DNA of 64,000 nt, from assembly GCF_028622115.1 (NCBI RefSeq), contig NZ_CP097263.1:7688001-7752000 (forward strand). The letters run 5' to 3'. The translations under genes and the position numbers were made by a program. Shown here piece after piece: positions 2,096 through 17,507 of the stretch. Numbering within the stretch: position 1 is the first letter of the stretch; every line of letters starts with the position of its first letter. The DNA is from Kutzneria chonburiensis. Its GTDB lineage: Bacteria; Actinomycetota; Actinomycetes; Mycobacteriales; Pseudonocardiaceae. Under the pieces are notes generated by a model. The model was given only the letters and a program-made list of their open reading frames with translations, ran no database searches and was not told the origin of the DNA.

Positions 2096-3270
2096 ACTGG
2101 GTCGACCTGGTTGTGGTCCTGCTGGCCGTGATCGCCGCGATCTCCGGGGCCCGGCACGGCCTGATCACCACTCTGCCGGCGACCGTCGGCGTGCTCGGCG
2201 GCACCGTGCTCGGCCTGATCGTGACGCCGATGATCATGGCCAACTTCAACAGCAACGTCACCCGGATCGCGGTCTGGATGGGCGCGCTGGTGCTGCTGGT
2301 CGCGCTGGGCGAGACCTTAGGCGTGTGGCTCGGCCGGTCCATCCGCCAGCACATCCGGCTCGGCCCGTTCACCGGCGTGGACCACACCCTGGGCGCGGTC
2401 GTGCAGTGCGCGGTGGTCTTCGTGGTGGCCTGGGTGTTCGCGCTGCCGCTGACCTCGGTGCCGGTGCCCGGCCTGGCCTCGGCCATCCGCGGCTCGGTGG
2501 TGCTGGGCACCGTCAACAACCTGATGCCGGCCGAGGCCGAGCAGCTGCCCAACGACGTGAGCAAGCTGCTCAGCTCGGGCCTGCTCACCGCGACCGGTCC
2601 GTTCACCCGGACCCCGATCACCGATGTCGACCCGCCCGACACGGCCCTGCAGAACAGCCAGGTCGTGAAGTCGGTGGAGTCCAGCGTGCTCAAGGTGCGC
2701 GGGCGGGCGCCGTCCTGCTCACGGGCCCTGGAGGGCAGCGGTTTCGTGATCGCGCCCGAGCGTGTGATGACCAACGCCCATGTGGTCGCCGGCACCGACG
2801 ACGAGGTGGTGGAGGTCGGCCGCGGCCAGCTCACCGCGCACGTCGTCTACTACGACCCGGAGGCCGACGTCGCGGTGCTGTCCGTGCCCGGCCTGGACGC
2901 CCAGCCGCTTCAGTTCAGCCAGCAGGACTACACCTCGGGCCAGGACGCGATCGTGCTCGGCTACCCGCTGGACGGCCCGTACACCGCGCGGGCGGCCCGG
3001 GTCCGGCAGCGCATCCAGCTCAACGGGCCGGACATCTACGGCACCCAGAAGGTCACCCGTGACGTCTACACGATCCGGTCGATCGTGAAGAGCGGCAACT
3101 CCGGCGGCCCGCTGATCAACCCGAACGGCCAGGTCATCGGGGTCGTGTTCGGCGCGGCGGTGGACGACCCGGAGACCGGTTTCGCGTTGACCACGGCCGA
3201 GGTCAGCAAGGTGGTGCAGCAGGCGCGGTCGCTGTTCCGGCCGGTGTCAACCGGCTCCTGCGCCGAGTAG
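2092..3270 (+). CDS. marP: MarP-like membrane serine protease (acid resistance)
   Basis: Homologue of the periplasmic acid-resistance protease MarP (Rv3671c). Four hydrophobic segments fill about residues 1-130 (CvpA-like). A chymotrypsin-fold domain follows with His230 (NAHVVAG), Asp259 (PEADVAVL) and Ser337 (KSGNSGGPL). Cys209 and Cys390 lie where the regulatory disulfide of MarP forms (Cys214-Cys395 there), and the triad numbers are offset by the same five or six residues. Its length is 392 residues. The GTG start overlaps the Nudix stop. Its 3' end overlaps the convergent hydrolase gene by 24 bases. The TlpA-like thioredoxin in the same operon is a candidate redox partner. Confidence 0.93.
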   Translation: MNWVDLVVVLLAVIAAISGARHGLITTLPATVGVLGGTVLGLIVTPMIMANFNSNVTRIAVWMGALVLLVALGETLGVWLGRSIRQHIRLGPFTGVDHTLGAVVQCAVVFVVAWVFALPLTSVPVPGLASAIRGSVVLGTVNNLMPAEAEQLPNDVSKLLSSGLLTATGPFTRTPITDVDPPDTALQNSQVVKSVESSVLKVRGRAPSCSRALEGSGFVIAPERVMTNAHVVAGTDDEVVEVGRGQLTAHVVYYDPEADVAVLSVPGLDAQPLQFSQQDYTSGQDAIVLGYPLDGPYTARAARVRQRIQLNGPDIYGTQKVTRDVYTIRSIVKSGNSGGPLINPNGQVIGVVFGAAVDDPETGFALTTAEVSKVVQQARSLFRPVSTGSCAE

Positions 3271-4059
3271 CAGCGCGGTGACGGCGTCGGGGCGCTCCCA
3301 CTGCGGGAAGTGCCCGGCGCCGTCGATCACCTCGTACGGCGTGAAGCGGGTGGCCGGAGAGGTGCGGGCGTCGTGCTCGCCGCGCAGGCGCAGCACCGGC
3401 GCCTCCAGCGGGCGGCTGACGGCTTTCTTGAACTCGCGGCCGTCGCCTCGTAGCCGGGAGCGGAAGGCCCAGCGGAAGTACTCCATGCTGCTGTGCGGGA
3501 CGCCCCGGATCAGCATCGCCTCACGGGCGCGGCGCAGCACCTCGGGATCGGCCGTCCACTGCGGACCGGTCCACGCGCGCAGCAGGCGCTCGACCACGGC
3601 GGCGTCGTCGGCTGCCAGCTTTCGCTCCGGCCAGAACGGCGGTTGGGCCTTGAGGAGGGTGCGCAGCGGGATCTCCAACGGGTGTGGCGCGGAGATCGTC
3701 GTGACGGATTCGACCAGCCGGGGATGCAGGGCCGCGGTCGTCCACGCCAGCACGCCGCCCCAGCCGTGCCCGACGAGATGGGCCCTGCGCGCGCCGAGGG
3801 CCTTGATCAGCCCGGCGACGTCGCCGGCCAGCGTCCAGCCGTCGTAGCCGCGCGGCGTCTTGTCCGACTTGCCGTAGCCCCTCAGGTCCACGGCTACGGC
3901 GTGGCGGCCGTGCGCGGCGAGCACCGGCAGCTGGTGCCGCCAGGTCCACCAGAACTCCGGGAACCCATGCAGCATCAGCGTGAGCGGACCGCTACCGGCC
4001 TCGGCGACGTGCAGCCGGATGCCGTTGGCCGAGATGGTCCGATGGCGCGGCGGTGTTAC
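3247..4059 (-). CDS. Alpha/beta hydrolase, EphE-like (epoxide hydrolase family), start codon degenerate
   Basis: Alpha/beta-hydrolase resembling Rv3670 (EphE) in position and sequence. The oxyanion-hole motif HGFPEFWW is near residue 31. The nucleophile elbow reads GHGWGG, so Gly99 stands where epoxide hydrolases carry a nucleophilic Asp. A charge-relay Asp (GEHDARTSP) and His (GAGHFPQWE) remain. No ATG, GTG or TTG precedes the conserved domain in frame; the expected GTG, which would overlap the upstream stop by four bases, reads GTA at 4057-4059. The feature is drawn from that codon (270 residues). It could be inactive, poorly translated, or affected by a base-call error. It is translationally coupled to the holin-family gene upstream. 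Confidence 0.75.
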   Translation of the reverse strand, partial: VTPPRHRTISANGIRLHVAEAGSGPLTLMLHGFPEFWWTWRHQLPVLAAHGRHAVAVDLRGYGKSDKTPRGYDGWTLAGDVAGLIKALGARRAHLVGHGWGGVLAWTTAALHPRLVESVTTISAPHPLEIPLRTLLKAQPPFWPERKLAADDAAVVERLLRAWTGPQWTADPEVLRRAREAMLIRGVPHSSMEYFRWAFRSRLRGDGREFKKAVSRPLEAPVLRLRGEHDARTSPATRFTPYEVIDGAGHFPQWERPDAVTALLLGAGAG

Positions 4060-4544
4060 GAGTGCTCGCCGGGGTGGCTCAGCGCGGCGGCCGTGTCCTT
4101 GATCGTCTCGATGGTCCGCTGCGGCGCGCGCAGCTTGCGCACCTTGCGGTAGCCGAGGAAACCGAGCACACCGGCGCCGATGAGCATCACGCCCCACACG
4201 ATGCCGAACGCGGCCGAGCGGTAGAGGCCCAAGTCGGCCAGCAGCTCGGCGATCGCGAAGAACAGGAAGAACAGGCTGAACATCAGGATCGTCAGCGCGG
4301 CGATGAAGAACACGCTGCCGCTGACGACCTTTTTGGCCTCGGCCTTGAGCTCCAGCTTGGCCAGCTCGATCTCGGCCCGCAGCAGCACCGAGACCTGGGT
4401 CATCACGGCCTTGATCAGACCGCCGACCGACTGCTCGCCGGCCACGTCGCGGGCCGTCTCCTCGGTCAGCGGGATCGAGGGCACCGGGGGCAGACCGGCG
4501 CCGTGGCCGTTCGGGGTGTGTCCTGGGCCTGTCACGGTGGTCAT
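4056..4544 (-). CDS. Phage-holin-family small membrane protein (Rv3669-like)
   Basis: A 162-residue protein with two adjacent hydrophobic helices (about residues 75-130), preceded by an amphipathic segment rich in Lys and Glu. This is the layout of the actinobacterial holin superfamily III (PF07332). The ATG at 4544 follows an AGGGGG about 11 bases upstream; a longer in-frame start exists but lacks support. Members are common chromosomal genes in actinobacteria and are not necessarily lytic. The gene lies immediately upstream of the EphE-like hydrolase, as in mycobacteria. Its function is unknown. Confidence 0.82.
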   Translation of the reverse strand: MTTVTGPGHTPNGHGAGLPPVPSIPLTEETARDVAGEQSVGGLIKAVMTQVSVLLRAEIELAKLELKAEAKKVVSGSVFFIAALTILMFSLFFLFFAIAELLADLGLYRSAAFGIVWGVMLIGAGVLGFLGYRKVRKLRAPQRTIETIKDTAAALSHPGEHS

Positions 4545-4664
4545 CGTGCCATGCACCCCCTGAGGTGCGCTGTGCGGTGCGCCCGGAACGCCGTCCGGCG
4601 CTGCGGGCAATCAGGTGGCATGTTGACTCAGACCGTGCCACCGGCGCTGACAGGAGGGCCGGGC

Positions 4665-5204
4665 GTGGACCGACTGGGGAGCGAATCGGACCTGGTCGCG
4701 CTGTACGACACCCACGCCCGGCTGCTGTTCCACTACCTGTCCCGCCGCGTTGGCCCCGAGGCCGCCGACGACCTGGTCGCCGAGACGTTCCTCGCCGCGT
4801 GGCAGCAGCGCGCCACCTTCGACCCGGCGCGCGCCGGGGCCAAGGCGTGGCTGTACGGCATCGCCACCAACCTGATGCGGCGTCACCTGCGCGGCGAGGA
4901 GCGGCGGCTGCGCGCGTGGGGCCGGGCGTGGTCCAACTGGATCGGGCACCGGCGTAGCGACGACGACCTCGGTGAGCGCGTCGCGACCGCGGCCGACGCC
5001 GAGGTGCTCGCCGGCCGCGCCGCCGAGGCCGTCGCCCAGCTGCGCAGCGAGGAGCGGGAGGTGCTGCTGCTGGTCGCGTGGGCCTCGTTGACGCCGACCG
5101 AGGTGGCCGAGGCGCTAGGCGTCGCTGTTGCCACCGTGCGCACCCGCCTGCACCGCGCCCGTACGAACGTTCGCAAGCACCTGGAGGACAGCCGTGATGT
5201 CTGA
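4665..5204 (+). CDS. ECF-type RNA polymerase sigma factor
   Basis: Extracytoplasmic-function sigma-70 factor of 179 residues. Region 2 covers YDTHARLLFHYLSRRVG to LVAETFLAAW. Region 4 covers EEREVLLLVAW to VATVRTRLHRAR. In-frame starts exist further upstream (ATG 4620), but the GTG at 4665 has a strong AGGAGG at 4652-4657 with good spacing, so it is preferred. The stop lies eight bases inside the next gene, whose product is the likely partner. It is divergent from the holin-family gene, with the promoters sharing about 120 bases. Confidence 0.9.
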   Translation: MDRLGSESDLVALYDTHARLLFHYLSRRVGPEAADDLVAETFLAAWQQRATFDPARAGAKAWLYGIATNLMRRHLRGEERRLRAWGRAWSNWIGHRRSDDDLGERVATAADAEVLAGRAAEAVAQLRSEEREVLLLVAWASLTPTEVAEALGVAVATVRTRLHRARTNVRKHLEDSRDV

Positions 5205-6243
5205 ACTCGACGACGACCGCGTCGACGCAGCCGTCGGCGCTGTGCGTTCCGACGCCCCGCAGATGAGCGAGGCGTCCTTCCAGGCCACCCGCGCGCGGGT
5301 GCTTGCCGCGACCGCGGACAACGTGGTGCCGCTACGGCGACGCCGCGCCCTGCTCATCGGCGCGGCTGCGGCCGTGGCCACGGTGATCGGCATCGCCGTC
5401 ATGCCCGGCTCGCCCGATTCCCCGGCGCCGTACGTATCGGCGGCCCCCGTGCTGAACAAGGCCGCCGACGTGACCATCGGCTCCGCGCCGGACCCGGTCG
5501 TCGGCGCCGGCCAGTACCTGCTCGTGCAGAGGGACCAGTGGACCGGCGGCCCGTACGAGTCGACCTGGCCGGCCGACTACGCGTACCTGGCTGAGGTGCG
5601 GACCGACATCTGGATCCCGGCCGACCGCAGCAAGTCGTGGAAGCGGGTGGTGACCGTCAGCCCCGATCCGAAGATGCTCTACGGGGACGAGGCGAAGGCC
5701 CGCGCCAACCTGGCCGAGTGGCGAAAGGCCTGGGACGGCACCACGGTGGCCGACGGCGGCGACTTCTACCACTACCCCGGTGGTCCGGAAGCCGCGGCGA
5801 ACCTGGGCAGCCCGACGCCCAAGTACCTGGCCGGCCTGCCGGCCGATCCCAAGCAGCTCTACGACGCCCTCGAGCGTGAGCAGCGCCCCGACTTCGCCGG
5901 CACCGACGAGCGCCTGCTCGAAGCGGCCGGGGCCGGGCTGGCCAGCGGCCTGATGCCGACCGAGTTCCGGGCGCGGCTGTACCGGGCGCTGACGTACATC
6001 AAGGGGCTCGAGGTCGTCGACCAGGTGGCGAACCTGGACGGCAAGAAGGGCGTCGCGCTGGGGCTGCGGGCCGGATATCCCGGTGGCGACACCAAGAACG
6101 TCGAGACCCAGCTGATCATCGACCCGGCGACCGGGCAGTTCATCGGCGAGCGCGAAGTGGCGATGCAGGACTTCGACGGCGTGCACACCGGGACGGTGTT
6201 GTCGTACAGCTCCGTCACGTCGAAGGTGGTCGACCACAACTGA
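5197..6243 (+). CDS. CU044_5270-family protein (sigma-factor partner, putative anti-sigma)
   Basis: Membrane-anchored protein of 348 residues paired with the sigma factor. A cytoplasmic N-terminus of about 50 residues (starting MSELDDDRVDAAVGAVRSDA) is followed by one transmembrane helix (RRRALLIGAAAAVATVIGIAVM). A large extracytoplasmic domain with no catalytic motif completes it. This matches the CU044_5270 family, usually encoded next to ECF sigma factors. Translation is coupled: its ATG lies within the last eight bases of the sigma gene, behind GGAGG; GTG 5194 is an alternative start. An anti-sigma role is inferred from topology and context. Confidence 0.8.
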   Translation: MSELDDDRVDAAVGAVRSDAPQMSEASFQATRARVLAATADNVVPLRRRRALLIGAAAAVATVIGIAVMPGSPDSPAPYVSAAPVLNKAADVTIGSAPDPVVGAGQYLLVQRDQWTGGPYESTWPADYAYLAEVRTDIWIPADRSKSWKRVVTVSPDPKMLYGDEAKARANLAEWRKAWDGTTVADGGDFYHYPGGPEAAANLGSPTPKYLAGLPADPKQLYDALEREQRPDFAGTDERLLEAAGAGLASGLMPTEFRARLYRALTYIKGLEVVDQVANLDGKKGVALGLRAGYPGGDTKNVETQLIIDPATGQFIGEREVAMQDFDGVHTGTVLSYSSVTSKVVDHN

Positions 6244-8368: not shown

Positions 8369-9091
8369 GTGAACGACCCGCTGGCGCCACTGTTGGATCT
8401 GCCCGGTGTCGCCGCGGCCGTCGAGGCCGCTCGCGACGCCGTTGCCGAGGTCCACCGCCATCCCGCCAACCGTCGGGGCTGGCCCACCACCGCCGCCGAG
8501 GCTTCCGTCCGGGCGGCCCGGGCCTCCGCCGTTCTCGACGGCGGCGCCGCCGAGATTCCGTCGGACGGGTCCGTGTCCGACCCGTTGTTGGCCGGATCCC
8601 TCCGGGTCGCCGAGGCCATCGGCCCTCTGCTGTCGACGTGGCAGAAGGCCCCTCTCCAGGCGTTGGCCCGTCTGCACGTCCTGGCCGCCGCCGACCTCGT
8701 CGACTCTTCCGCTTTGGGACGGCCTTCTGCCGCCGGTCCCCGGCTGGAGATGCTCGCCTCGTTGATCGCCGGCGGCAGTTCCGTTCCCGCCCCCGTGCTG
8801 GTCGCCGTCGTCCACGGCGAGCTCTTGTCCCTTGCCCCCTTCGGCCCCGTCAGCGGCCTCATCGCCCGCGCCGCCGCGCGTCTGACGATGATCGGTACCG
8901 GCCTCGACACCAAGGGCCTCGCCGTGCCCGAGGTCGCCTACCTCCGCCGCTCGGCTGAGTACCGGTCGACGTTGGAGGGCTTTTCCGCCGGCACCCCCGA
9001 CGGCGTCACCGCGTGGCTCCTGTTCAGCTGCTCCGCCTTGGAGGCCGGCGCCAGCGAAGCCCGCAGCATCGCCGACTCTGTGGGGCAGTGA
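8369..9091 (+). CDS. Conserved actinobacterial protein, Rv3662c-like
   Basis: Ala-rich soluble protein of 240 residues equivalent in position to Rv3662c (beside acs, near the HAD phosphatase and ssd genes). The segment EASVRAARASAVLDGGA and the mostly helical composition recall Fic-like folds, but no HxFxxGNGR active-site motif is present, so no catalytic call is made. GTG start at 8369. The dre-like palindrome lies 27 bases upstream of the start, so it may be co-regulated with acs. Function unknown. Confidence 0.75.
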   Translation: MNDPLAPLLDLPGVAAAVEAARDAVAEVHRHPANRRGWPTTAAEASVRAARASAVLDGGAAEIPSDGSVSDPLLAGSLRVAEAIGPLLSTWQKAPLQALARLHVLAAADLVDSSALGRPSAAGPRLEMLASLIAGGSSVPAPVLVAVVHGELLSLAPFGPVSGLIARAAARLTMIGTGLDTKGLAVPEVAYLRRSAEYRSTLEGFSAGTPDGVTAWLLFSCSALEAGASEARSIADSVGQ

Positions 9092-9239
9092 ATTCGTTAC
9101 ACCCTAATGTGTAGCTCGTTCGGGTGATTGTGCGTATTTTCTTGTCCATTTCGTTTTCCGGTGCGGTGTTCGGTCGGATGGGCGGCTGGCTAGACTTGTG
9201 ACTTCCTCGGTCGTGCGAATTGATCACGGGAGTCGTGGC

Positions 9240-9593
9240 ATGCCCACCGGAAGTGTCGCCATCACCGGCGATGAACAGGAATTGCGAAGCCTGGCCAGGT
9301 GGCTGCGTGACGAGGACGACCTGCGCGGCCGGGTGTCGCTGGCCGACCGCCCGATCGCCGCGGGGGAGATGGGCGGTGTGCTCGACTCCGTGGTCGTGGT
9401 GCTGACCAGCGCCACCGCCGGGCAGCTGGTCAAGTCGGTGTTCGGCTGGCTCGGCCAGCGCCGCCACGCGTCCGCCGTGGTCCTCAAGGCCCGTAACGCC
9501 CGCGGCGCCGAAATCGAATTGAAGTGTGGTTCTGCGGCGGACGCCTCCGTCGTACTCGGTGACCTGCGGGCCTTTCTCTCGGATGGTGAGTGA
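9240..9593 (+). CDS. EACC1-like effector-associated constant component
   Basis: Small protein of 117 residues resembling effector-associated constant component 1 (EACC1), a domain found next to NTPase- or protease-based effectors in predicted conflict systems. It shows an N-terminal strand-helix (MPTGSVAITGDEQELRSLAR), a hydrophobic central helix (VLDSVVVVLTSATAGQLVKSVFGWLG) and a C-terminal helix. ATG 9240 has GGGAG seven bases upstream; an in-frame GTG at 9198 is less likely. Its stop is six bases before the caspase gene, so the two are co-transcribed. The upstream 150 bases are AT-richer than the surroundings, and TAGACT at 9191 is a possible -10 box. Confidence 0.72.
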   Translation: MPTGSVAITGDEQELRSLARWLRDEDDLRGRVSLADRPIAAGEMGGVLDSVVVVLTSATAGQLVKSVFGWLGQRRHASAVVLKARNARGAEIELKCGSAADASVVLGDLRAFLSDGE

Positions 9594-9599
9594 TCGACC

Positions 9600-11021
9600 T
9601 TGCTTCCGCGGCGTGAACTGTCGCGTGCGGTGCTGATCGGCACGAGCGACTTCCAACAATTGCCACTGTTGCCGGCGGTCGGCAACAATCTTGTCGACCT
9701 TCGCTCCGCGCTGACCGATGACGAGGTCGGCATTCTGGGCTGGGGGCAGTGCGTCATGGTGGACAGCCCTGACTCGCCATCCAGCCTGATCAGTCGTCTG
9801 CGTACCGCCGCCGCGCAGGCGCAGGACCTGTTGCTCGTCTACTACGCCGGTCACGGCATCCGCGTCGGTGACGAGGAAGAGCTGTACCTGACCGTGCGGC
9901 AGAGCAACAACGACTCGCCGCTCGACACCTGCGTGCCGTTCGAGTGGGTGCGTCGGGCTGTTGTCGACAGTCCCGCACGGACCAAGCTGCTGATCCTCGA
10001 CTGCTGCTTCTCCGGGATGGCGTTGGGCACCATGTCCGCTCCGGTCGTGGACACCAGGCAGATCGAGGTCACGGGCACGACGGTGATCACTTCGTCGCCG
10101 CGGAACTCCGTGTCGCACTCCCTGCCCGGCGAGCGGCACACCGCCTTCACCGGCGAGCTGATCACCTTGCTGCGCACCGGTTCCCCGCTGCCCGAGGAAC
10201 CGCTCACGGTCGCCGAGCTGTTCCGATCGCTGCTCGCCGCAATGGCCCGCCGGAAGCTGCCGCACCCGAAGATGCGGTCCGGCGACACCAGTGGATCCCT
10301 GCAGCTGCGCCGGTTCTTGCCGCCGCCGCCACCTCCGGAGCCAGAGCCCGAGGCCGTCGTGTCTGAGCCGGTCGTGCCGGTCGCGCAACCAGGGCCGGAG
10401 CCGGTTGTCGTGTGGCCACAGCCGGAGCCGGTCCGGCGTTTCGAGGATCCCGACACGATCCGCTTCGCGCCGGTGAAACCACCCCTCAACCTCGCGCCGA
10501 TCGGCGCGGTCGCCCAGGTCTATCTTCCGCTCGCCGCCGCGATCGTGTTGGTCTTCTGCTTCGACACCGCGGTGGGCTGTTTTGTCGGCTATGCCTGGGG
10601 CGTTCCGAGACCCGGCGCGACTGGCGCAACGGATCTCGGCATGGCGATCGGTGCCACCGTGATGTTCCTGCTCATCGGTGGGTTCGGTGTGCTCTGGCGG
10701 GTAAAGGGCGGGCGCTGGGTTGTGCTGGAGGATGTGTTGCCGCGGCCAGCGAAGTGGACGGCTCCGCTTCGGATCGCCGTGATTGTCGTACTGCTCCTGG
10801 TGTTCGCCATTACCAGCTGCGTAGGTCTGTTCCAGGGAGCGTCGCCGTCGAGCCAACCCTCGAGCTTCAGCGACCTGTCGCTGAGCGTGATGACGCCCCT
10901 GTGCATGATCACGGCCGCCGTGGCCTGCGCATACTCGCTGGCGCGGCGGATCCGTCGCGCCAGCCGAACTGCGCCGGTCATCAGCTCGCCGCAGCTCCCA
11001 ATGCCACCAGCGCATTCCTGA
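9600..11021 (+). CDS. Caspase-family (C14) protease with four C-terminal membrane helices
   Basis: Predicted cysteine endopeptidase of 473 residues. The N-terminal caspase-like domain (about 1-240) shows the catalytic pair His85 (YYAGHG) and Cys136 (LDCCFSG). A Pro/Glu-rich linker (about 240-280) is followed by four hydrophobic helices between about residues 295 and 460, so the protease should be membrane-tethered with its domain in the cytoplasm. The TTG at 9600 keeps the first beta strand (SRAVLIGTSDF); later starts would remove it. It is paired with the EACC1 gene as in predicted EACC1-caspase conflict modules. The target is unknown. Its 3' end overlaps convergent murQ by 41 bases. Confidence 0.85.
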   Translation: MLPRRELSRAVLIGTSDFQQLPLLPAVGNNLVDLRSALTDDEVGILGWGQCVMVDSPDSPSSLISRLRTAAAQAQDLLLVYYAGHGIRVGDEEELYLTVRQSNNDSPLDTCVPFEWVRRAVVDSPARTKLLILDCCFSGMALGTMSAPVVDTRQIEVTGTTVITSSPRNSVSHSLPGERHTAFTGELITLLRTGSPLPEEPLTVAELFRSLLAAMARRKLPHPKMRSGDTSGSLQLRRFLPPPPPPEPEPEAVVSEPVVPVAQPGPEPVVVWPQPEPVRRFEDPDTIRFAPVKPPLNLAPIGAVAQVYLPLAAAIVLVFCFDTAVGCFVGYAWGVPRPGATGATDLGMAIGATVMFLLIGGFGVLWRVKGGRWVVLEDVLPRPAKWTAPLRIAVIVVLLLVFAITSCVGLFQGASPSSQPSSFSDLSLSVMTPLCMITAAVACAYSLARRIRRASRTAPVISSPQLPMPPAHS

Positions 11022-11916
11022 CGTGACCGCCGGTGGCAGTCAAAGCCTCGGCCGCCTGTACGGAGTCGATGCCGGCCAACAGGCGCACCAGCGCCACCTT
11101 CAAATCCCCGTCGGCCTCAAGCAGCGCAGCGGTGCACTCCGCCTCGTCCAGACCGGTGGCCTCGCGCAGGATCCGCAGGGTCCGGCCGCGCAGCTTGGCG
11201 TTGGTCGCCCGCATGCTGACCATGAGGTTGGAGTAGGTACGCCCAAGCTTGATCATCACGGCCGTGGAGAAGGCGTTGAGCACGAGCTTCTGGGCGGTGC
11301 CGGCCTTCATCCGCGTGGACCCGGCGATGACCTCGGGACCGGTGCTGACGGCGATGAGGACGTCGAGGGGCACGGACGGGACAGCGCCGGGGTTGGCGGA
11401 CAGGAGCACGGTCCGCGCGCCGACCTCGTTGCCGGCGGCCAGCGCGCCGAGCACGAACGGGGTGCGGCCGGAAGCGGTGATCCCGAAGACGACGTCGGTG
11501 GGCCGAGCGGCGTCACGGATCTCGGCGGCGCCGGCGTCGAAGTCGTCCTCGGCGTTCTCGACGGCCACCCGCAGCGCGGTGGCGCCGCCGGCGTGGTGGG
11601 CGACGAACCAGTCGGCGGGGGTGTTGAACGTGGGCATGAGCTCGGCGGCGTCGAGCGTGGCCAACCGCCCGGACGTGCCGGCGCCGACGTAGTGCACGCG
11701 ACCGCCGGACCGCAGGGTGGCGACGGCGTGGTCGACGGCCCGCGCGACCTGCGGCAGCACGTCGGCGACGGCGCCGGGCACCAGGCGGTCCTCGCTGTTG
11801 ATCATCCGCAGCACGTCCACCGTGGGCAGTCTGTCAATCCCCTCGGTCGCGGGGTTGCGCTGCTCGGTGGGGGAATCGACTCGCACGATCGACTCACGTG
11901 GCTGCGGCAACGTCAT
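10981..11916 (-). CDS. murQ: N-acetylmuramic acid 6-phosphate etherase
   Basis: Lyase of 311 residues that cleaves the lactyl ether of MurNAc-6-phosphate to give GlcNAc-6-phosphate and D-lactate in peptidoglycan recycling. The SIS domain shows VHYVGAGTSGRLATLDA near the N-terminus and FGITASGRTPFV later. GSTRMKAGTAQKLVLNAFS is the family signature. The ATG start overlaps the murR stop (ATGA), giving a murR-murQ operon on the minus strand. The extreme 3' end overlaps the caspase gene. Confidence 0.96.
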   Translation of the reverse strand: MTLPQPRESIVRVDSPTEQRNPATEGIDRLPTVDVLRMINSEDRLVPGAVADVLPQVARAVDHAVATLRSGGRVHYVGAGTSGRLATLDAAELMPTFNTPADWFVAHHAGGATALRVAVENAEDDFDAGAAEIRDAARPTDVVFGITASGRTPFVLGALAAGNEVGARTVLLSANPGAVPSVPLDVLIAVSTGPEVIAGSTRMKAGTAQKLVLNAFSTAVMIKLGRTYSNLMVSMRATNAKLRGRTLRILREATGLDEAECTAALLEADGDLKVALVRLLAGIDSVQAAEALTATGGHVRNALVALGAAAS

Positions 11917-12845
11917 TTACCTGTCTCCCGTGCCTTCCGGCGGCCGTCGGGACGCGGACCGAGTCGATGTCCGCCCACAGCCTCGTAGGTGGACTCCAAC
12001 GCGTTACGCGCGCTGTCGAGGTGTTTCTGCGCGACGCCGATGAACAGGCAGTCGATGACGGTGAGCTGGGCGATCCGGCTGGCCATCGCACCGGAGCGGA
12101 AGGTGGTCTCCCGCGCGGCGGTGGTCAGCACGTGGTCAGCGACCTCTGAGATGGGCGACCGAGGGAAGTTTGTGAGAGCCACGGTGGTGGCGCCGCGCTC
12201 CCGCGCCACCCGAAGCGCTTCGACGGTGTCGGCGGTCGCGCCGGTGTGCGAGATGCCGAAGGCGACGTCGCCCTCGGACAGCACGGCGGCGGAGGTCAGC
12301 ATGATGTGGGTGTCGCTCCACGCGAAGCTGACACGCCCTATGCGGTGCAGCTTCTGCTGGAGGTCGGCGGCGACGAAAGCGCTTGCGCCGACCCCGTACA
12401 CGTCGACCCGTCCGGCACTGGCGACGGCGTCCACGACGGCGCTCAAGGTCGGGATCTCCAGCTGGTCGGCCGTCTCTTCGACGGCACGCGCATCGGCAAA
12501 CGCGACCTTGCCGACCACCTGCGACAGGTCGTCGGTGGGCGCGATGTCGCTGCCCAGGTCGCGGTCGATGCGGGCGGCGGTCCGCGCGGTGTCGGCGGCA
12601 AGGGCGATGCGCAACTCGGGGTAGCCCCCGACGCCGATCGCCTTGCAGAACCGGGTCACCGTGGTCTCGCTCGTGCCGGCCGCCTCGGCGACCTCTGTGA
12701 TGCTGCGGTGCGCGACGACCTGGGGGTTGTCGAGCACGACCTTGGCCACGCGCTGCTCGGCGCGGGCCAGACCGGGCAGCAGCGAACGGATCCGGACCAG
12801 CGGGCTCGCCTCGCTGATCTCACTGGCTGACTTGGCGGGTGCCAC
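11913..12845 (-). CDS. murR: MurR/RpiR-family transcriptional regulator
   Basis: Repressor-type regulator of 310 residues. The N-terminal HTH_6 domain (RSITEVAEAAGTSETTVTRFCKAIG) covers about residues 45-75, and a SIS sugar-phosphate-binding domain covers about 130-265 (DVYGVGASAFVAADLQ, GISHTGATADTVEAL). It should sense MurNAc-6P or a related sugar phosphate and control murQ, with which it overlaps by ATGA. The GTG start at 12845 has no Shine-Dalgarno sequence. A promoter ends about eight bases upstream, so a leaderless mRNA is likely. A palindrome in that promoter suggests autoregulation. Confidence 0.92.
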   Translation of the reverse strand: MAPAKSASEISEASPLVRIRSLLPGLARAEQRVAKVVLDNPQVVAHRSITEVAEAAGTSETTVTRFCKAIGVGGYPELRIALAADTARTAARIDRDLGSDIAPTDDLSQVVGKVAFADARAVEETADQLEIPTLSAVVDAVASAGRVDVYGVGASAFVAADLQQKLHRIGRVSFAWSDTHIMLTSAAVLSEGDVAFGISHTGATADTVEALRVARERGATTVALTNFPRSPISEVADHVLTTAARETTFRSGAMASRIAQLTVIDCLFIGVAQKHLDSARNALESTYEAVGGHRLGPRPDGRRKARETGK

Positions 12846-12851
12846 GTGGGA

Positions 12852-12880
12852 AACTTACTAACAGTAACTGTTTCGGTCAA
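12852..12880 (-). promoter_or_regulatory. murRQ promoter with overlapping palindromic operator
   Basis: On the minus strand, TTGACC (12875-12880) and TAAGTT (12852-12857) are separated by 17 bases. The palindrome TTACT-aac-AGTAA (12855-12867) overlaps the -10 box and spacer. The -10 box ends six bases before the GTG at 12845, so the transcript would start at or next to the start codon. Binding by MurR is inferred. Confidence 0.7.
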
Positions 12881-12902
12881 CATAATGGCCCCTGACCTGC
12901 GG

Positions 12903-14582
12903 TTACGTCAGCTGCCAACCGACCGGTGTGAACGTGGTGCGGCCGCAGCTCAGCTCGATGTCGGCCACGTTCACGCCCCTTCCTTCGTATGAGGGGTCGG
13001 TTGTGTAACGCCACCGCAGCATCAGATCGTTCGACGGATTCGACACCTGTGCCCGAACCTGCTGCCAGGACCGGCTGGACTGTCCCGACAGTGACATCTG
13101 GGGGGACATCTGGGGGCCGCTGCGACCACGCACCGTGAGCGGCACGGCGGTCCAGGTGGTGCCGCCGTCCGTGCTGGCCTCCAACGTCAGCAGATCCGTC
13201 GTCTCGGTGTTGACGAAAGCCTCGAACGACACCCGCACCGACCCGTGCAGCGTCCCGGTGGTCAACGTGCTGGTCGACCCGCCGCCCTGCCCGGAGAACC
13301 ACGACCGGCCGCCGTCCGGCGCCTGTACGGACATGGCCTGCGCCAATGCCTGCGCCGCCGCACGACGGGCGCCGTTGGTGCTGGGCGTGTTGCGGGTCGG
13401 GTGCACACGGTTGGTCAGCAGGATGGCGAACGAGCGCGACCGCGGGTCGATCACCAGCGACGTGCCGGTGAACCCGGTGTGCCCCATGGTGTCCGGGCCG
13501 GACAGGCCGCCCATGTACCAGATCTGGTCCAGCTCGAAGCCCAGCCCGTGCGAGTCGTCGGGGAACTTCTGGTTGAAGTTGACCTGCATCAGGTGCACGC
13601 CGTGCTCGCTGAGGATCCGGTGCCCGCGGTACACGCCGCCGTTGAGGATGGCCTGGGCCAATACGGCCAGGTCATCGGCCGTGGAGAAGACGCCGGCGTG
13701 CCCGGCGACACCGCCCATCGCCCACGCGTTCTCGTCGTGCACGGACCCGCGCACCATGCCTCGCGGCGGGGAGACCTCGTACTCCGTCGCGGCGATCCGG
13801 CTCAGCTTGGACGCCGGCGGGTTGTAGCCGGTGTCGACCATGTGCAGCGGCTCGGTGATGCCCGTACGCACGAGCTCGTCCAGCTTCTTGCCGGTGACCT
13901 GCTGCAACACCAGCTGCATGGTCAGCATGTTCAGGTCGGAGTACACGTACTGGGTGCCCGGCGCGGCCGATGGCGTCGTGTCCAGGATCGCCTTCTCCCG
14001 CGACGGGATGTCCGGATAGCCGGCCCACAGCGACGGAATCGGGTCGGGGATCAGTCCGGAGGTGTGGGTCAGCAGCTGCTCGATGGTGATGTCGGCCTTG
14101 CCGTTGGTGGCGAACTCGGGCAGGTAGTGCGCGACTGGCGTGTCCAGCGCGATCCGGCCGGCCTCCAGCTGCTGCACGGCCACGATCGACGTGAACAGCT
14201 TGGACAGTGACGCGAGGTCGTAGATGGTGTCGGTTCGGGCCGGCACCTGCTGATCCGGCGGCAGCTGAGTGGTCGCGTCCTGGAACTTCACGGCCTCGCC
14301 GGTCGCCGTGCGGTCGACGACAACACCGTTGTGCGCCAACAACGCCGTGGCGCCGGGATAGATCGACGGGACCCACGCGGCGAGCTGCCTGTTGAACGCG
14401 TCGATCGGGGCCGCGTTGAGCCCGGCCTGGGCCGGCGAACCGGCGCGCAGGACCGTGCCGGCCGGCGCGAAGCCCGGGTAGGGCCGGTCGAAGCGGGCCG
14501 AGTTCGGCCCGGCATCCGCGCTCGCGGTCACGGCGAACGCCAGCACGAGCACGGCCGGCAGGGCGAGGGCACGAATCCGCAT
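12903..14582 (-). CDS. Secreted serine hydrolase, AmiE/beta-lactamase class C family
   Basis: Exported protein of 559 residues with a signal peptide (MRIRALALPAVLVLAFAVTA). The serine beta-lactamase-like fold shows SLSK as the catalytic SxxK, YSDLN as the second motif, and GHTGFTG as the third. About 130 C-terminal residues form a separate beta-sandwich-like domain. In Bacillus subtilis the neighbour of nagZ and namZ is AmiE, a MurNAc-L-Ala amidase of this fold, so the same job is likely here. ATG 14582 is preceded by GAGGTGG. It lies seven bases after namZ in the nagZ-namZ-amiE operon. Confidence 0.83.
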   Translation of the reverse strand: MRIRALALPAVLVLAFAVTASADAGPNSARFDRPYPGFAPAGTVLRAGSPAQAGLNAAPIDAFNRQLAAWVPSIYPGATALLAHNGVVVDRTATGEAVKFQDATTQLPPDQQVPARTDTIYDLASLSKLFTSIVAVQQLEAGRIALDTPVAHYLPEFATNGKADITIEQLLTHTSGLIPDPIPSLWAGYPDIPSREKAILDTTPSAAPGTQYVYSDLNMLTMQLVLQQVTGKKLDELVRTGITEPLHMVDTGYNPPASKLSRIAATEYEVSPPRGMVRGSVHDENAWAMGGVAGHAGVFSTADDLAVLAQAILNGGVYRGHRILSEHGVHLMQVNFNQKFPDDSHGLGFELDQIWYMGGLSGPDTMGHTGFTGTSLVIDPRSRSFAILLTNRVHPTRNTPSTNGARRAAAQALAQAMSVQAPDGGRSWFSGQGGGSTSTLTTGTLHGSVRVSFEAFVNTETTDLLTLEASTDGGTTWTAVPLTVRGRSGPQMSPQMSLSGQSSRSWQQVRAQVSNPSNDLMLRWRYTTDPSYEGRGVNVADIELSCGRTTFTPVGWQLT

Positions 14583-14589
14583 GGCCACC

Positions 14590-15807
14590 TCATCTGTACA
14601 GCAGATACCGGATGCGATCTCGGCGGAAGGCGGCGAGCTCGGCCGCCCATGCGCCCACGACGTCGTCGACACCGGCGCCCGCGTCCACCATGCTGCGCAG
14701 ACGCGCCGAGCCGCTGAGGTTGTCGACCCAGTTGTCCGGCCGCCAACCGAACACTTTCGGGTACAACTCGCGGGCCGTCACGATCATCGAGACGGCGGTG
14801 CGGATGGCGTCGACGCGCGGCCGGTCGGTCAGGTGCGCCTGCACGCCGCCACACGTCTGGTTGACGAACTTGCTGAACGTCGGCACGAAGTAGGCCTCGC
14901 GGAACTCGATCCCGGGCAGCCCCAGCGAGTTCAGTCGCTCAGCCCAATGCCAGTCGATGCCGGGGGCGCCGATCGTCTCGAACGGCCGGCACGTGCCGCG
15001 GCCCTCGGACAGCAGCGTGCCCTCGAACAGACAGGTGCCGGGATAGAGCAGTGCCGTGTCGGCGGTCGGCATGTTCGGGCTCGGCGGCACCCACTGCCCG
15101 CTGAACAGGTCGTTTCGCCGCCATCCCGTGCATTTGACGATCTCCAGGCGGCTCAGCCGGGTCGTCAGGAACTCGGCGTCGAACAGCCGGGCCAGCTCGC
15201 CGACGGTCATGCCGGGCTGCTGCACGATCGGCTTCAACCCGACGAGGGTGGCGAACTTCGGGTCCAGCTGCGGCCCGTACGCCTGGCCGCCGATGGGATT
15301 CGGCCGGTCCAGCACCATGAACGACGCCCCGGTCGCGGCGGCCGCCTCCATGGCGATGAACATCGTCCAGGTATAGGTGTAGAACCGCGCGCCGACGTTG
15401 GCGATGTCGAACACCACGGTGTCCACGCCGGCCTTGCGGTACATGGCCGCCAGCTTGTCGACGGTGACGTTGTACGCGTCGTAGACCGGAATCCCGGTCC
15501 GCGGATCCGTGTAGTCACCCTCGGATCCGCCGGCCTGGGCGGTGCCGCGGAAGCCGTGCTCCGGCCCGAAAACGGCGACCGGGCGGACCTGGTTGGCCAC
15601 CATGTCGTCGACCAGATGCGTGAGATCGGCCAGCACGCCGGTCGGGTTCGTGAGCACGCCGACCTTGCGGCCGCGCAATCGCTTGTAGCCCTCGGCGGCG
15701 AGAATGTCCGCGCCGTTGAGGCGTTTTTGTTCCGGCAGTGCCGGCACGGCCGGTACGGCCGCGGTCAGCGCCGACGCGGCGAGGAAACCCCGGCGGGACA
15801 GGCTCAC
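14590..15807 (-). CDS. namZ: Exo-beta-N-acetylmuramidase NamZ (DUF1343, GH171)
   Basis: DUF1343 protein of 405 residues; the family includes NamZ, which removes terminal MurNAc from peptidoglycan fragments. The N-terminus SRRGFLAASAL is a twin-arginine (Tat) signal. Family features include GRKVGVLTNPTGV, FGPEHGFRG, VVFDIANVGARFYTYTWTM, and LDRPNPIGG. The GTG at 15807 overlaps the nagZ stop (GTGA), which fixes the start well downstream of the longest open frame. It would supply MurNAc for the MurQ branch together with NagZ and the AmiE-like enzyme. Confidence 0.92.
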   Translation of the reverse strand: MSLSRRGFLAASALTAAVPAVPALPEQKRLNGADILAAEGYKRLRGRKVGVLTNPTGVLADLTHLVDDMVANQVRPVAVFGPEHGFRGTAQAGGSEGDYTDPRTGIPVYDAYNVTVDKLAAMYRKAGVDTVVFDIANVGARFYTYTWTMFIAMEAAAATGASFMVLDRPNPIGGQAYGPQLDPKFATLVGLKPIVQQPGMTVGELARLFDAEFLTTRLSRLEIVKCTGWRRNDLFSGQWVPPSPNMPTADTALLYPGTCLFEGTLLSEGRGTCRPFETIGAPGIDWHWAERLNSLGLPGIEFREAYFVPTFSKFVNQTCGGVQAHLTDRPRVDAIRTAVSMIVTARELYPKVFGWRPDNWVDNLSGSARLRSMVDAGAGVDDVVGAWAAELAAFRRDRIRYLLYR

Positions 15808-17462
15808 CAGGTCAGTCCCGTGCCGAAGGAGTACGAGTTCGGGATGTCCACGGGCAGCTTGCCCTGCGGCGCGACCGCGCCGGCGATCACCCGGGCCAGC
15901 GATCGCATCGACACCGCGGTGTACGAGTAGGTGTCGATCCATGTGTGGGCCTCGGGAATCGCGCCCGGGTCGTACGGATTGCCGACGCCGACGGCGATCA
16001 CCGGCTTGCCGGTCGCGACCAGATCGCGAACCCGTTGCTGCTGCGCCGGATCCGCCGCGGCGCCGTTGGTCGTCACCACGATCGCGTCATAGTCGGTGGC
16101 GGTCTTGCTGGCCGGAATCCCTTGGGCGGTCAGGGCATCGGCCAGCGTCTGGGTCGTCGTCACGCCCCACCCCGTGACCAGCACGGACTTCGCCTTCAGC
16201 GGCAGCGTGCCGCCATTGCTCAGCACGGTGACCGTCGAGTCGGTGATGCGCTGCGCGGTGGCCAGACTCGTTGTCGTGCCGACCTTCTTGGCCACGGCGT
16301 TGACGTCGGTGAACGGGTTGAACAGCACGCCCCGTCGCAACTTCACGGCCAGGATGCGGGCCACGCTCTGGTCGATCCGCCGCTCCGACAGCTGCCCCGT
16401 CCGCACGGCGTTGATCACCGCATTGACGGCGGTGCCGACGTTCTGCGGCATCAGCAGCATGTCCGCGCCGGCCTGCAACGCCTTCACCGGGATCTCGGCG
16501 TCGGTGTACTTCTGCCGGACGCCGGCCATCTGCAGCGAGTCGGTGATCACCATGCCGCGGTATCCGAGCTCGTCGCGCAGCATGCCGGTGAGCACGGTCG
16601 GCGACAGCGTCGACGGATCGCCGGACGGGTCGATCTTCGGAAACACGATGTGCGCACTCATGATCACGTCCGTGCCGGCCTTGATGGCGGCCCGGAACGG
16701 CGGCGCGTCGATCTGCTCCCAGGTGGCCTTGTCGTGGTCGATGACCGGCAGCCCGGTGTGGCTGTCGGTGGCCGCGTCGCCGTGCCCGGGGAAGTGCTTT
16801 GCCGTCGTGGCCACACTCTGCTGATAGCCCTTGACCTGCGCGGACACCATGTTCGAGACCAGGGTCGGGTCCGAGCCGAAGGACCGCACGCCGATCACCG
16901 GGTTGGCCGGGTTCACGTTCACGTCGGAATCCGGCGCGTTGTTCATGTTGATGCCCATGGCCCGCAGCTCACGGCCCGTGATGGTGGCTGCCTGCTCGGC
17001 GTTGGCGGTGCTTCGGCTGGCGCCCAAGGCCATGCTGCCGGGGAAGGTGGTCGCCGGCGCACCGATCCTCGTGACCAGGCCTTCTTCCTGGTCGGTGGAG
17101 ATCAGCAGCGGGATGTGCGCGCCGGAGGAGATGGCCGCCTTCTGTAGGCCGTTGGACAGCCCGGCGATCTGGGTCGGGTTCTGCACGTTGTCCGACCACG
17201 CGAAGTAGATGACGCCGCCCAGGTGGTACTTCTGCACCAGCTGGGCCGGCGTGTCGACGCCGAACTCCGTCTGGTTGCGGGCATCCACCGTGTCCGCGGT
17301 CGGGCCGTAGCCGTAGGTCATGAACAGCTGGCCGACCTTCTCGGCCAGGGTCATGCCGTGCAGCGCGGCGCTGACCTGGTCGGGTTGGGCGTCGGCGGCG
17401 CCCGGGGCTGCGGTGGCCATCGCGGCCAAGCCTGCCAGTAAGGCGACGAGTGTCCTGCGCAC
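15804..17462 (-). CDS. nagZ: Secreted beta-N-acetylglucosaminidase, GH3
   Basis: Glycoside hydrolase family 3 enzyme of 552 residues that releases GlcNAc from muropeptides. It shows the catalytic His/Asp loop KHFPGHGDAATDSH and the nucleophile Asp308 in VITDSLQMAG. A second alpha/beta domain follows. GTG 17462 is preceded by GGGAGGA and starts a clear signal peptide (MRRTLVALLAGLAAMATAAPG); the in-frame GTG at 17486 has no such support. It is the first gene of the nagZ-namZ-amiE operon. Its promoter shares the AGTTACT element with the murR promoter. Confidence 0.93.
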   Translation of the reverse strand: MRRTLVALLAGLAAMATAAPGAADAQPDQVSAALHGMTLAEKVGQLFMTYGYGPTADTVDARNQTEFGVDTPAQLVQKYHLGGVIYFAWSDNVQNPTQIAGLSNGLQKAAISSGAHIPLLISTDQEEGLVTRIGAPATTFPGSMALGASRSTANAEQAATITGRELRAMGINMNNAPDSDVNVNPANPVIGVRSFGSDPTLVSNMVSAQVKGYQQSVATTAKHFPGHGDAATDSHTGLPVIDHDKATWEQIDAPPFRAAIKAGTDVIMSAHIVFPKIDPSGDPSTLSPTVLTGMLRDELGYRGMVITDSLQMAGVRQKYTDAEIPVKALQAGADMLLMPQNVGTAVNAVINAVRTGQLSERRIDQSVARILAVKLRRGVLFNPFTDVNAVAKKVGTTTSLATAQRITDSTVTVLSNGGTLPLKAKSVLVTGWGVTTTQTLADALTAQGIPASKTATDYDAIVVTTNGAAADPAQQQRVRDLVATGKPVIAVGVGNPYDPGAIPEAHTWIDTYSYTAVSMRSLARVIAGAVAPQGKLPVDIPNSYSFGTGLTW

Positions 17463-17507
17463 GGCGTCCTCCCGTGACCTTCTCACCGACTATGCAGATC
17501 AATCGGC

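Follow-up and report, generated by a model that had tools for sequence, protein, structure and literature searches.

The window is a stretch of 64,000 nucleotides from Kutzneria chonburiensis, whose genome is one 10.4 Mb contig. On its forward strand we found an EACC1 gene at 9240–9593, which encodes 117 amino acids and matches PF19953 (E 8.3e-27; 93.7 bits, cut-off 23.6); the EACC1 assignment rests on this Pfam profile. An in-frame GTG at 9198 is an alternative start and would give a protein of 131 residues. On the same strand a gene at 9600–11021 encodes a 473-residue EACC1-associated caspase with a C-terminal membrane domain (PF00656, E 2.9e-12; NF047832, E 2.7e-68). Its start is the TTG at 9600, the first start past the EACC1 stop in its own frame, and both genes use the same reading frame. 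A 117-residue EACC1-like protein six bases ahead of a caspase had been described in the earlier note, and the open reading frame, the PF19953 match and the position of the TTG agree with that description.

The caspase domain (9621–10250) was delimited by its match to NF047832, the NCBIfam model caspase_w_EACC1 ('caspase, EACC1-associated type'), which scores 229.6 bits against a cut-off of 140 and matches all 24 members of an alignment of close relatives (A1) at E ≤ 0.001. When residues are counted from the TTG, His85 and Cys136 are present in 66 of 66 aligned proteins. Besides the window protein this alignment (A4) includes 65 of the 79 named relatives; the other 14 named loci are near-copies, cut or oddly extended, as are the 17 of 72 EACC1s omitted from the EACC1 alignment (A3). 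Following the family motif, we take the catalytic residue to be the second of two invariant cysteines. In 54 of the 66 proteins the constant region ends in a basic residue (Arg237/Arg238 in the 473-residue numbering), which is at most suggestive of a conserved cleavage site.

The codon-position GC of the pair is that of real genes. In 72 of the 79 named loci recovered with the caspase query, moreover, EACC1 is no more than 250 bp upstream of where the caspase starts. On both counts the pair is more than a chance arrangement. As the single transmembrane helix expected of EACC1 in the known system described below, the central hydrophobic stretch of the window EACC1 is borderline: its best 19-residue hydropathy is 1.55, under the line of 1.6 that is reached by 41 of 56 EACC1 proteins.

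Site and distribution of the pair

The pair lies between an Rv3662c-like gene (8369–9091, forward strand) and murQ (10981–11916, reverse strand), as the earlier note had placed it. The name Rv3662c-like comes from that note, and the gene product is without a Pfam match; murQ is named from its SIS/GKRP Pfam matches and from the same note. The caspase gene and murQ converge and overlap at their 3' ends by 41 bp (10981–11021). Ahead of the pair is an A+T-rich leader (9092–9239, GC 0.53 versus 0.70 for the window), in which we found no resemblance to empty sites and no site in a consensus promoter scan. Resemblance to empty sites begins at about 10997, and of the sequence between the flanking genes at five empty sites we found no trace in the window. 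Rfam gave no match. The region 10981–17486 encodes murQ, an RpiR-type regulator with a SIS domain, a beta-lactamase-fold protein, NamZ and a family-3 glycosidase, and looks like a MurNAc recycling cluster.

The Rv3662c-like gene is a core gene of the family, with 379 of 390 genomes matching it at E ≤ 1e-30, and murQ has a match in all seven genomes of the genus. The pair is at this site in only one of the seven. In five of the other six Kutzneria genomes the Rv3662c-like gene adjoins murQ without the pair, and the sixth carries an IS110 transposase at the site. We inspected 1.5 kb on each side of the best 30 Rv3662c-like loci and found the pair in two, the window and Actinophytocola oryzae (G048). 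The gap to murQ was 10–208 bp in 15 of these loci and 494–1258 bp in five; in eight, one with IS110, murQ was absent within 1.5 kb. These comparisons indicate that the pair is accessory in an otherwise conserved backbone, as the earlier note had proposed. That note had set strict conservation as housekeeping genes against its reading; the pair is not strictly conserved in related genomes, so this pattern did not appear. The GC3 of the pair is 0.81–0.83 against a median of 0.92, though it is as low in 11 of the window's 50 gene calls. EACC1 had a match in 218 of 390 Pseudonocardiaceae genomes; since the genome searches score few first-look candidates per genome (4, or 9 in the membrane-domain searches), all such counts are lower bounds.

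The related A. oryzae pair (L095/L110) lies between the same two core genes and has the same kind of membrane domain; its caspase domain is about 49% identical to that of the window. In the caspase tree a sister relation of the two was neither supported nor rejected (AU p 0.37). The same site in two genera could reflect a hotspot or old shared presence. No clear target duplication was found as an insertion signature; the repeats are short and chance-like. A phage origin was rejected because neither protein was in any of 50,697 phage records; viral contigs gave two distant matches. A plasmid origin was likewise rejected: 40 of 72,556 plasmid records gave a match to the caspase, in no case across more than 80% of the protein, and among the 20 plasmid matches listed the protease part alone matched. 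EACC1 matches 8 plasmid records. The nine neighbouring genes gave no convincing defence match (best PADLOC E 8.5e-4), and within them a defence-island context is absent.

Pairing of EACC1 and caspase among relatives

EACC1 was next to the caspase in 18 of 20 fetched loci that carry the membrane domain. The two exceptions, L092 and L100, encode membrane-domain caspases (two in tandem in L100) without EACC1 in the sequence stretch examined. Distances between EACC1s and distances between caspase domains were correlated (r 0.70 over 73 pairs), and none of 2000 permutations rose above 0.09. The C-termini of 71 relatives fall into 29 groups. Apart from the pair itself, the only family found in at least three of the 20 membrane-domain loci that crosses genus groups is an ABC transporter ATPase (three loci); the other families recur because loci share a site within one Amycolatopsis group (nine loci) and within Crossiella (four). 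Neighbours in other genera showed no common theme by eye.

In a four-helix relative from Amycolatopsis vastitatis (L101:5161–6798, reverse strand; also L108) the linker contains an EAD2 domain (PF19956, E 2e-14), which connects it directly with the network of effector-associated domains. A second EACC1 lies past the caspase in five Amycolatopsis-group loci (L090, L091, L094, L098 and L101). In the one that was aligned (L090:7583–7894) the stretch ahead of the hydrophobic segment is missing, and these second copies are possibly decoys or antagonists. In Amycolatopsis jejuensis (L112, 5974–7354) the caspase frame is broken between protease and membrane domain, which is either real decay or a sequencing fault. 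The K. chonburiensis genome has a second EACC1-caspase pair (L212, C1:704000–712000; caspase at about 2441–5359 of the locus, reverse strand). The C-terminus of that caspase is a full HSP70 (PF00012, E 1e-208) preceded by a weak HEAT match (E 0.01), and a chaperone end of this kind is unusual.

The C-terminal membrane domain

In the window caspase a proline-rich linker (10317–10502), seen in alignment A1, is followed by four hydrophobic segments past residue 300. The intact dyad and these segments are in line with the His85/Cys136 pair and the four C-terminal membrane helices of the earlier note. By hydropathy the helix cores are at 10530–10586, 10638–10694, 10773–10829 and 10875–10931. Between the second and third is a positively charged loop of 26 amino acids with 6 K/R (10695–10772), predicted to be cytosolic from its charge count. 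In the 15 of 24 proteins in which four segments were found (the nine with fewer were left out), the mean number of K/R was 0.9 and 0.6 in the outer loops, which are short (about 14 amino acids), 7.7 in the inner loop and 4.4 past helix 4. We therefore predict a four-pass topology with both ends and the middle loop cytosolic and the caspase in the cytosol. A GxxxGxxxG motif, which in the window protein begins in the last residues of helix 1, is present in 13 of the 24 proteins; in 500 composition shuffles, not corrected for kinship, the count averaged 3.4 and never exceeded 9.

The 24 membrane-domain proteins and one Nocardia protein with a single predicted helix form one clade (SH-aLRT 98 in a tree of 81 rows; 99/99 in a careful tree of 29 rows). 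Outside this clade the C-termini change often. The membrane domain is a coherent domain with its own sub-lineage. In six comparisons among close relatives dN/dS was 0.04–0.22 for the caspase, 0.30–1.46 for the linker and 0.20–0.54 for the membrane domain, and in four comparisons it was 0.12–0.34 for EACC1. The membrane domain is thus kept, yet it evolves faster than the caspase.

The profile A5, built from the membrane domain alone, gave 23 matches at E ≤ 4.2e-20 in caspase loci of at least 22 of 386 family genomes; 20 of these 22 match by construction, having contributed to the profile, and two (G195 and G111) are new. At E ≤ 0.001 the profile matches 42 of the 386 genomes. Our count takes in the 22 genomes that reach E ≤ 4.2e-20 and the two motif-bearing proteins described below; weaker matches were left out because the one in G015 (E 6e-6) is a P-type ATPase. 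Beyond the family, among 394 Actinomycetes genomes (the window's own included), nine others gave partial matches only (best E 5e-6). A PDB search with the membrane domain returned one 38-column match (E 0.019). Assignment to a known fold was rejected on this and on the Pfam matches, which were scattered and weak (best E 0.0004 to 0.004) and included holins.

Caspase-free relatives of the membrane domain

The A5 profile also found two proteins without a caspase, in G009 and G346, which belong to two other genus groups (E 6e-11 and 1.5e-10). They align along nearly the whole domain (hhalign probability 96.6%, E 6e-10) and score 42–43 bits; 200 locally shuffled copies reached no more than 22.0 bits, and reversed copies no more than 3.5. 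None of 117 other multi-helix gene calls matched the profile.

The N-termini of the two proteins are short and share N-S-[IV]-x4-V-x2-[LV]-[IV]-Q-A-x2-[IV]-x-G-D. We take this motif to resemble the RHIM-like BASS3 motif. A RHIM-like expression matches both caspase-free proteins and an NB-ARC protein, but neither of the window proteins and none of the 367 open reading frames of the window. Searches of the two genomes with either N-terminus led to the same spot in G346 as the best or only non-self match, each match being weak (E 0.12 and 0.77). This spot is the N-terminus of the NB-ARC protein (L250:565–1599, reverse strand; PF00931, E 1.2e-12), which is on another contig. One query also matched elsewhere in G009 (E 0.50). 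Other matches were at E 0.38–1.0; by eye, the open reading frames of four of them had no such motif, and the N-terminus searches found no such NB-ARC partner in G009. The NB-ARC match is notable because both queries lead to one NLR N-terminus. A RHIM-like BASS3 motif linked to bacterial NLRs has been described (PMC7889193, PMC8086366). These comparisons suggest that another predicted death pathway contains relatives of the membrane domain.

Proposed role of the pair

The sequence analysis shows both genes with an intact dyad, tight pairing, an accessory distribution, a four-pass topology and motif-bearing caspase-free relatives. From these features we propose, with roughly even confidence, that the pair is an accessory two-gene conflict module, similar to abortive infection, in which a caspase triggers a membrane effector. 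EACC1 would sense the membrane or be held near it; that it senses the membrane is a published suggestion (PMC7159879). Upon a trigger, EACC1 would switch on the cytosolic caspase, which would then cut its own four-helix C-terminal domain loose or rearrange it, and perhaps cut other substrates. The membrane domain could then permeabilise or depolarise the membrane, so that the infected compartment is stopped or killed. Of this scheme we infer the trigger, the autoproteolysis, the membrane damage and the defence benefit. The papers listed by our literature searches included no experimental study of an EACC1 system. For the module we counted the pairing (72/79 and 18/20), the distance correlation, the variable effector end, EAD2, the topology, the reuse of the domain and dN/dS. 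Against it we counted L092 and L100 without EACC1, the lack of a phage record and of a defence island, and the weakness of the NB-ARC match. Nine of the 20 membrane-domain loci, from one genus group, have common flanking genes, which would also suit a domesticated role.

Another reading is a membrane-anchored regulatory protease: the helices would serve for sensing or anchoring only, the caspase would cleave a cytosolic or membrane protein to control development or the envelope stress response, and the membrane would not be damaged. The outer loops (just two, of about 14 amino acids) and the charged inner loop would fit, as would the position beside murQ here and the nine loci of one genus group, where the pair is near a PASTA-type protein kinase gene (of the nine, L086 was scanned) and stable in the group. 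We nevertheless consider a regulatory protease fairly unlikely, given an accessory distribution in at least 22 of 386 family genomes, immediate neighbours that by eye have no theme in common in other genera, and caspase-free domain relatives beside an amyloid-like motif. The link of the relatives to this motif also leads us to prefer an effector to a simple anchor. The earlier note left the choice between damage to the envelope and sensing at it; the caspase-free relatives sharpen the choice towards damage.

Alternatively, oligomerisation in the membrane might gather caspases, as death-fold adaptors do, and killing would proceed via other caspase substrates. The excess of the GxxxGxxxG packing motif over the shuffle maximum and the EAD2 in one linker are consistent with a clustering platform, but the shuffles ignore relatedness and no substrate gene recurs near the 20 membrane-domain loci, and we regard it as quite unlikely. 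That the pair is a passenger, neutral or in decay (a selfish cassette or a remnant with no present function), we hold to be highly improbable. Its presence in a single genus genome at the site, its low GC3, though shared by other window genes, and the broken frame in A. jejuensis would be expected of a passenger; however, dyad and frames are intact in the window, and in all comparisons, made among relatives rather than with the window copy, EACC1, caspase and membrane domain had dN/dS values under 0.6.

Returning to the caspase-triggered effector, we read the membrane domain as a putative portable membrane effector, which a caspase would activate in the window pair and an amyloid-type signal in the caspase-free relatives. 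We put forward tentatively, and on balance with some doubt, that the four-helix domain is an unnamed membrane-killing effector of Pseudonocardiaceae common to release by EACC1-caspase and to NLR amyloid templating via the RHIM-like motif. One domain would then link two predicted bacterial cell-death pathways, and a shared effector would be a bacterial parallel to apoptosis-type and necroptosis-type signalling meeting on membrane executioners. A small membrane-bound effector end related to parts used elsewhere offers a simple read-out, membrane potential, and the window pair offers a concrete test, namely whether the caspase releases an executioner.

Comparison with known systems

System 4, the EACC1 two-gene system of Kaur et al. 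2020 (PMC7159879), is a predicted conflict system found in 671 organisms according to the table of that paper and common in filamentous actinobacteria. It shares with the window the gene order, both domains, a variable C-terminus and membrane association, and the window scores exceed the curated cut-offs; by these marks we consider the pair a genuine, intact member of System 4, a kind already known. The earlier note was right that EACC1-protease pairs have been predicted as conflict systems, the source being itself a prediction. Its remark that a membrane role is undescribed does not hold, since PMC7159879 reports membrane association (at least 33% of the caspase proteins have transmembrane helices) and proposes EACC1 as a membrane sensor triggering autoproteolysis. 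The sections of that paper covered here name up to 50 C-terminal domains and transmembrane helices in general, and in them we found neither the four-helix domain as one family nor caspase-free relatives. What appears to be new here is the membrane domain as a coherent family, together with caspase-free relatives that carry a RHIM-like motif.

The BASS NLR signalosomes with BELL effectors (PMC7889193, PMC8086366) resemble our findings in the RHIM-like motif on the domain relatives and in a similar motif at an NB-ARC N-terminus in one genome (G346). They differ in several respects from what we describe. The window proteins are without an amyloid signalling motif, the effector here has four helices whereas BELL is described in these papers with one, and the motif is C-terminal on BELL but N-terminal in the caspase-free proteins; the NB-ARC gene of G346 is not adjacent. 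SLATT effectors have two transmembrane helices, in contrast to the four segments of the window domain. Orthocaspases, or prokaryotic metacaspases, have the caspase fold and the His-Cys dyad in common with the window protein, and transmembrane helices were reported in 104 sequences (15%) of an orthocaspase survey (PMC3501461). Compared with the orthocaspases as covered there, it is the EACC1 partner and the C-terminal four-pass domain that set the window pair apart.
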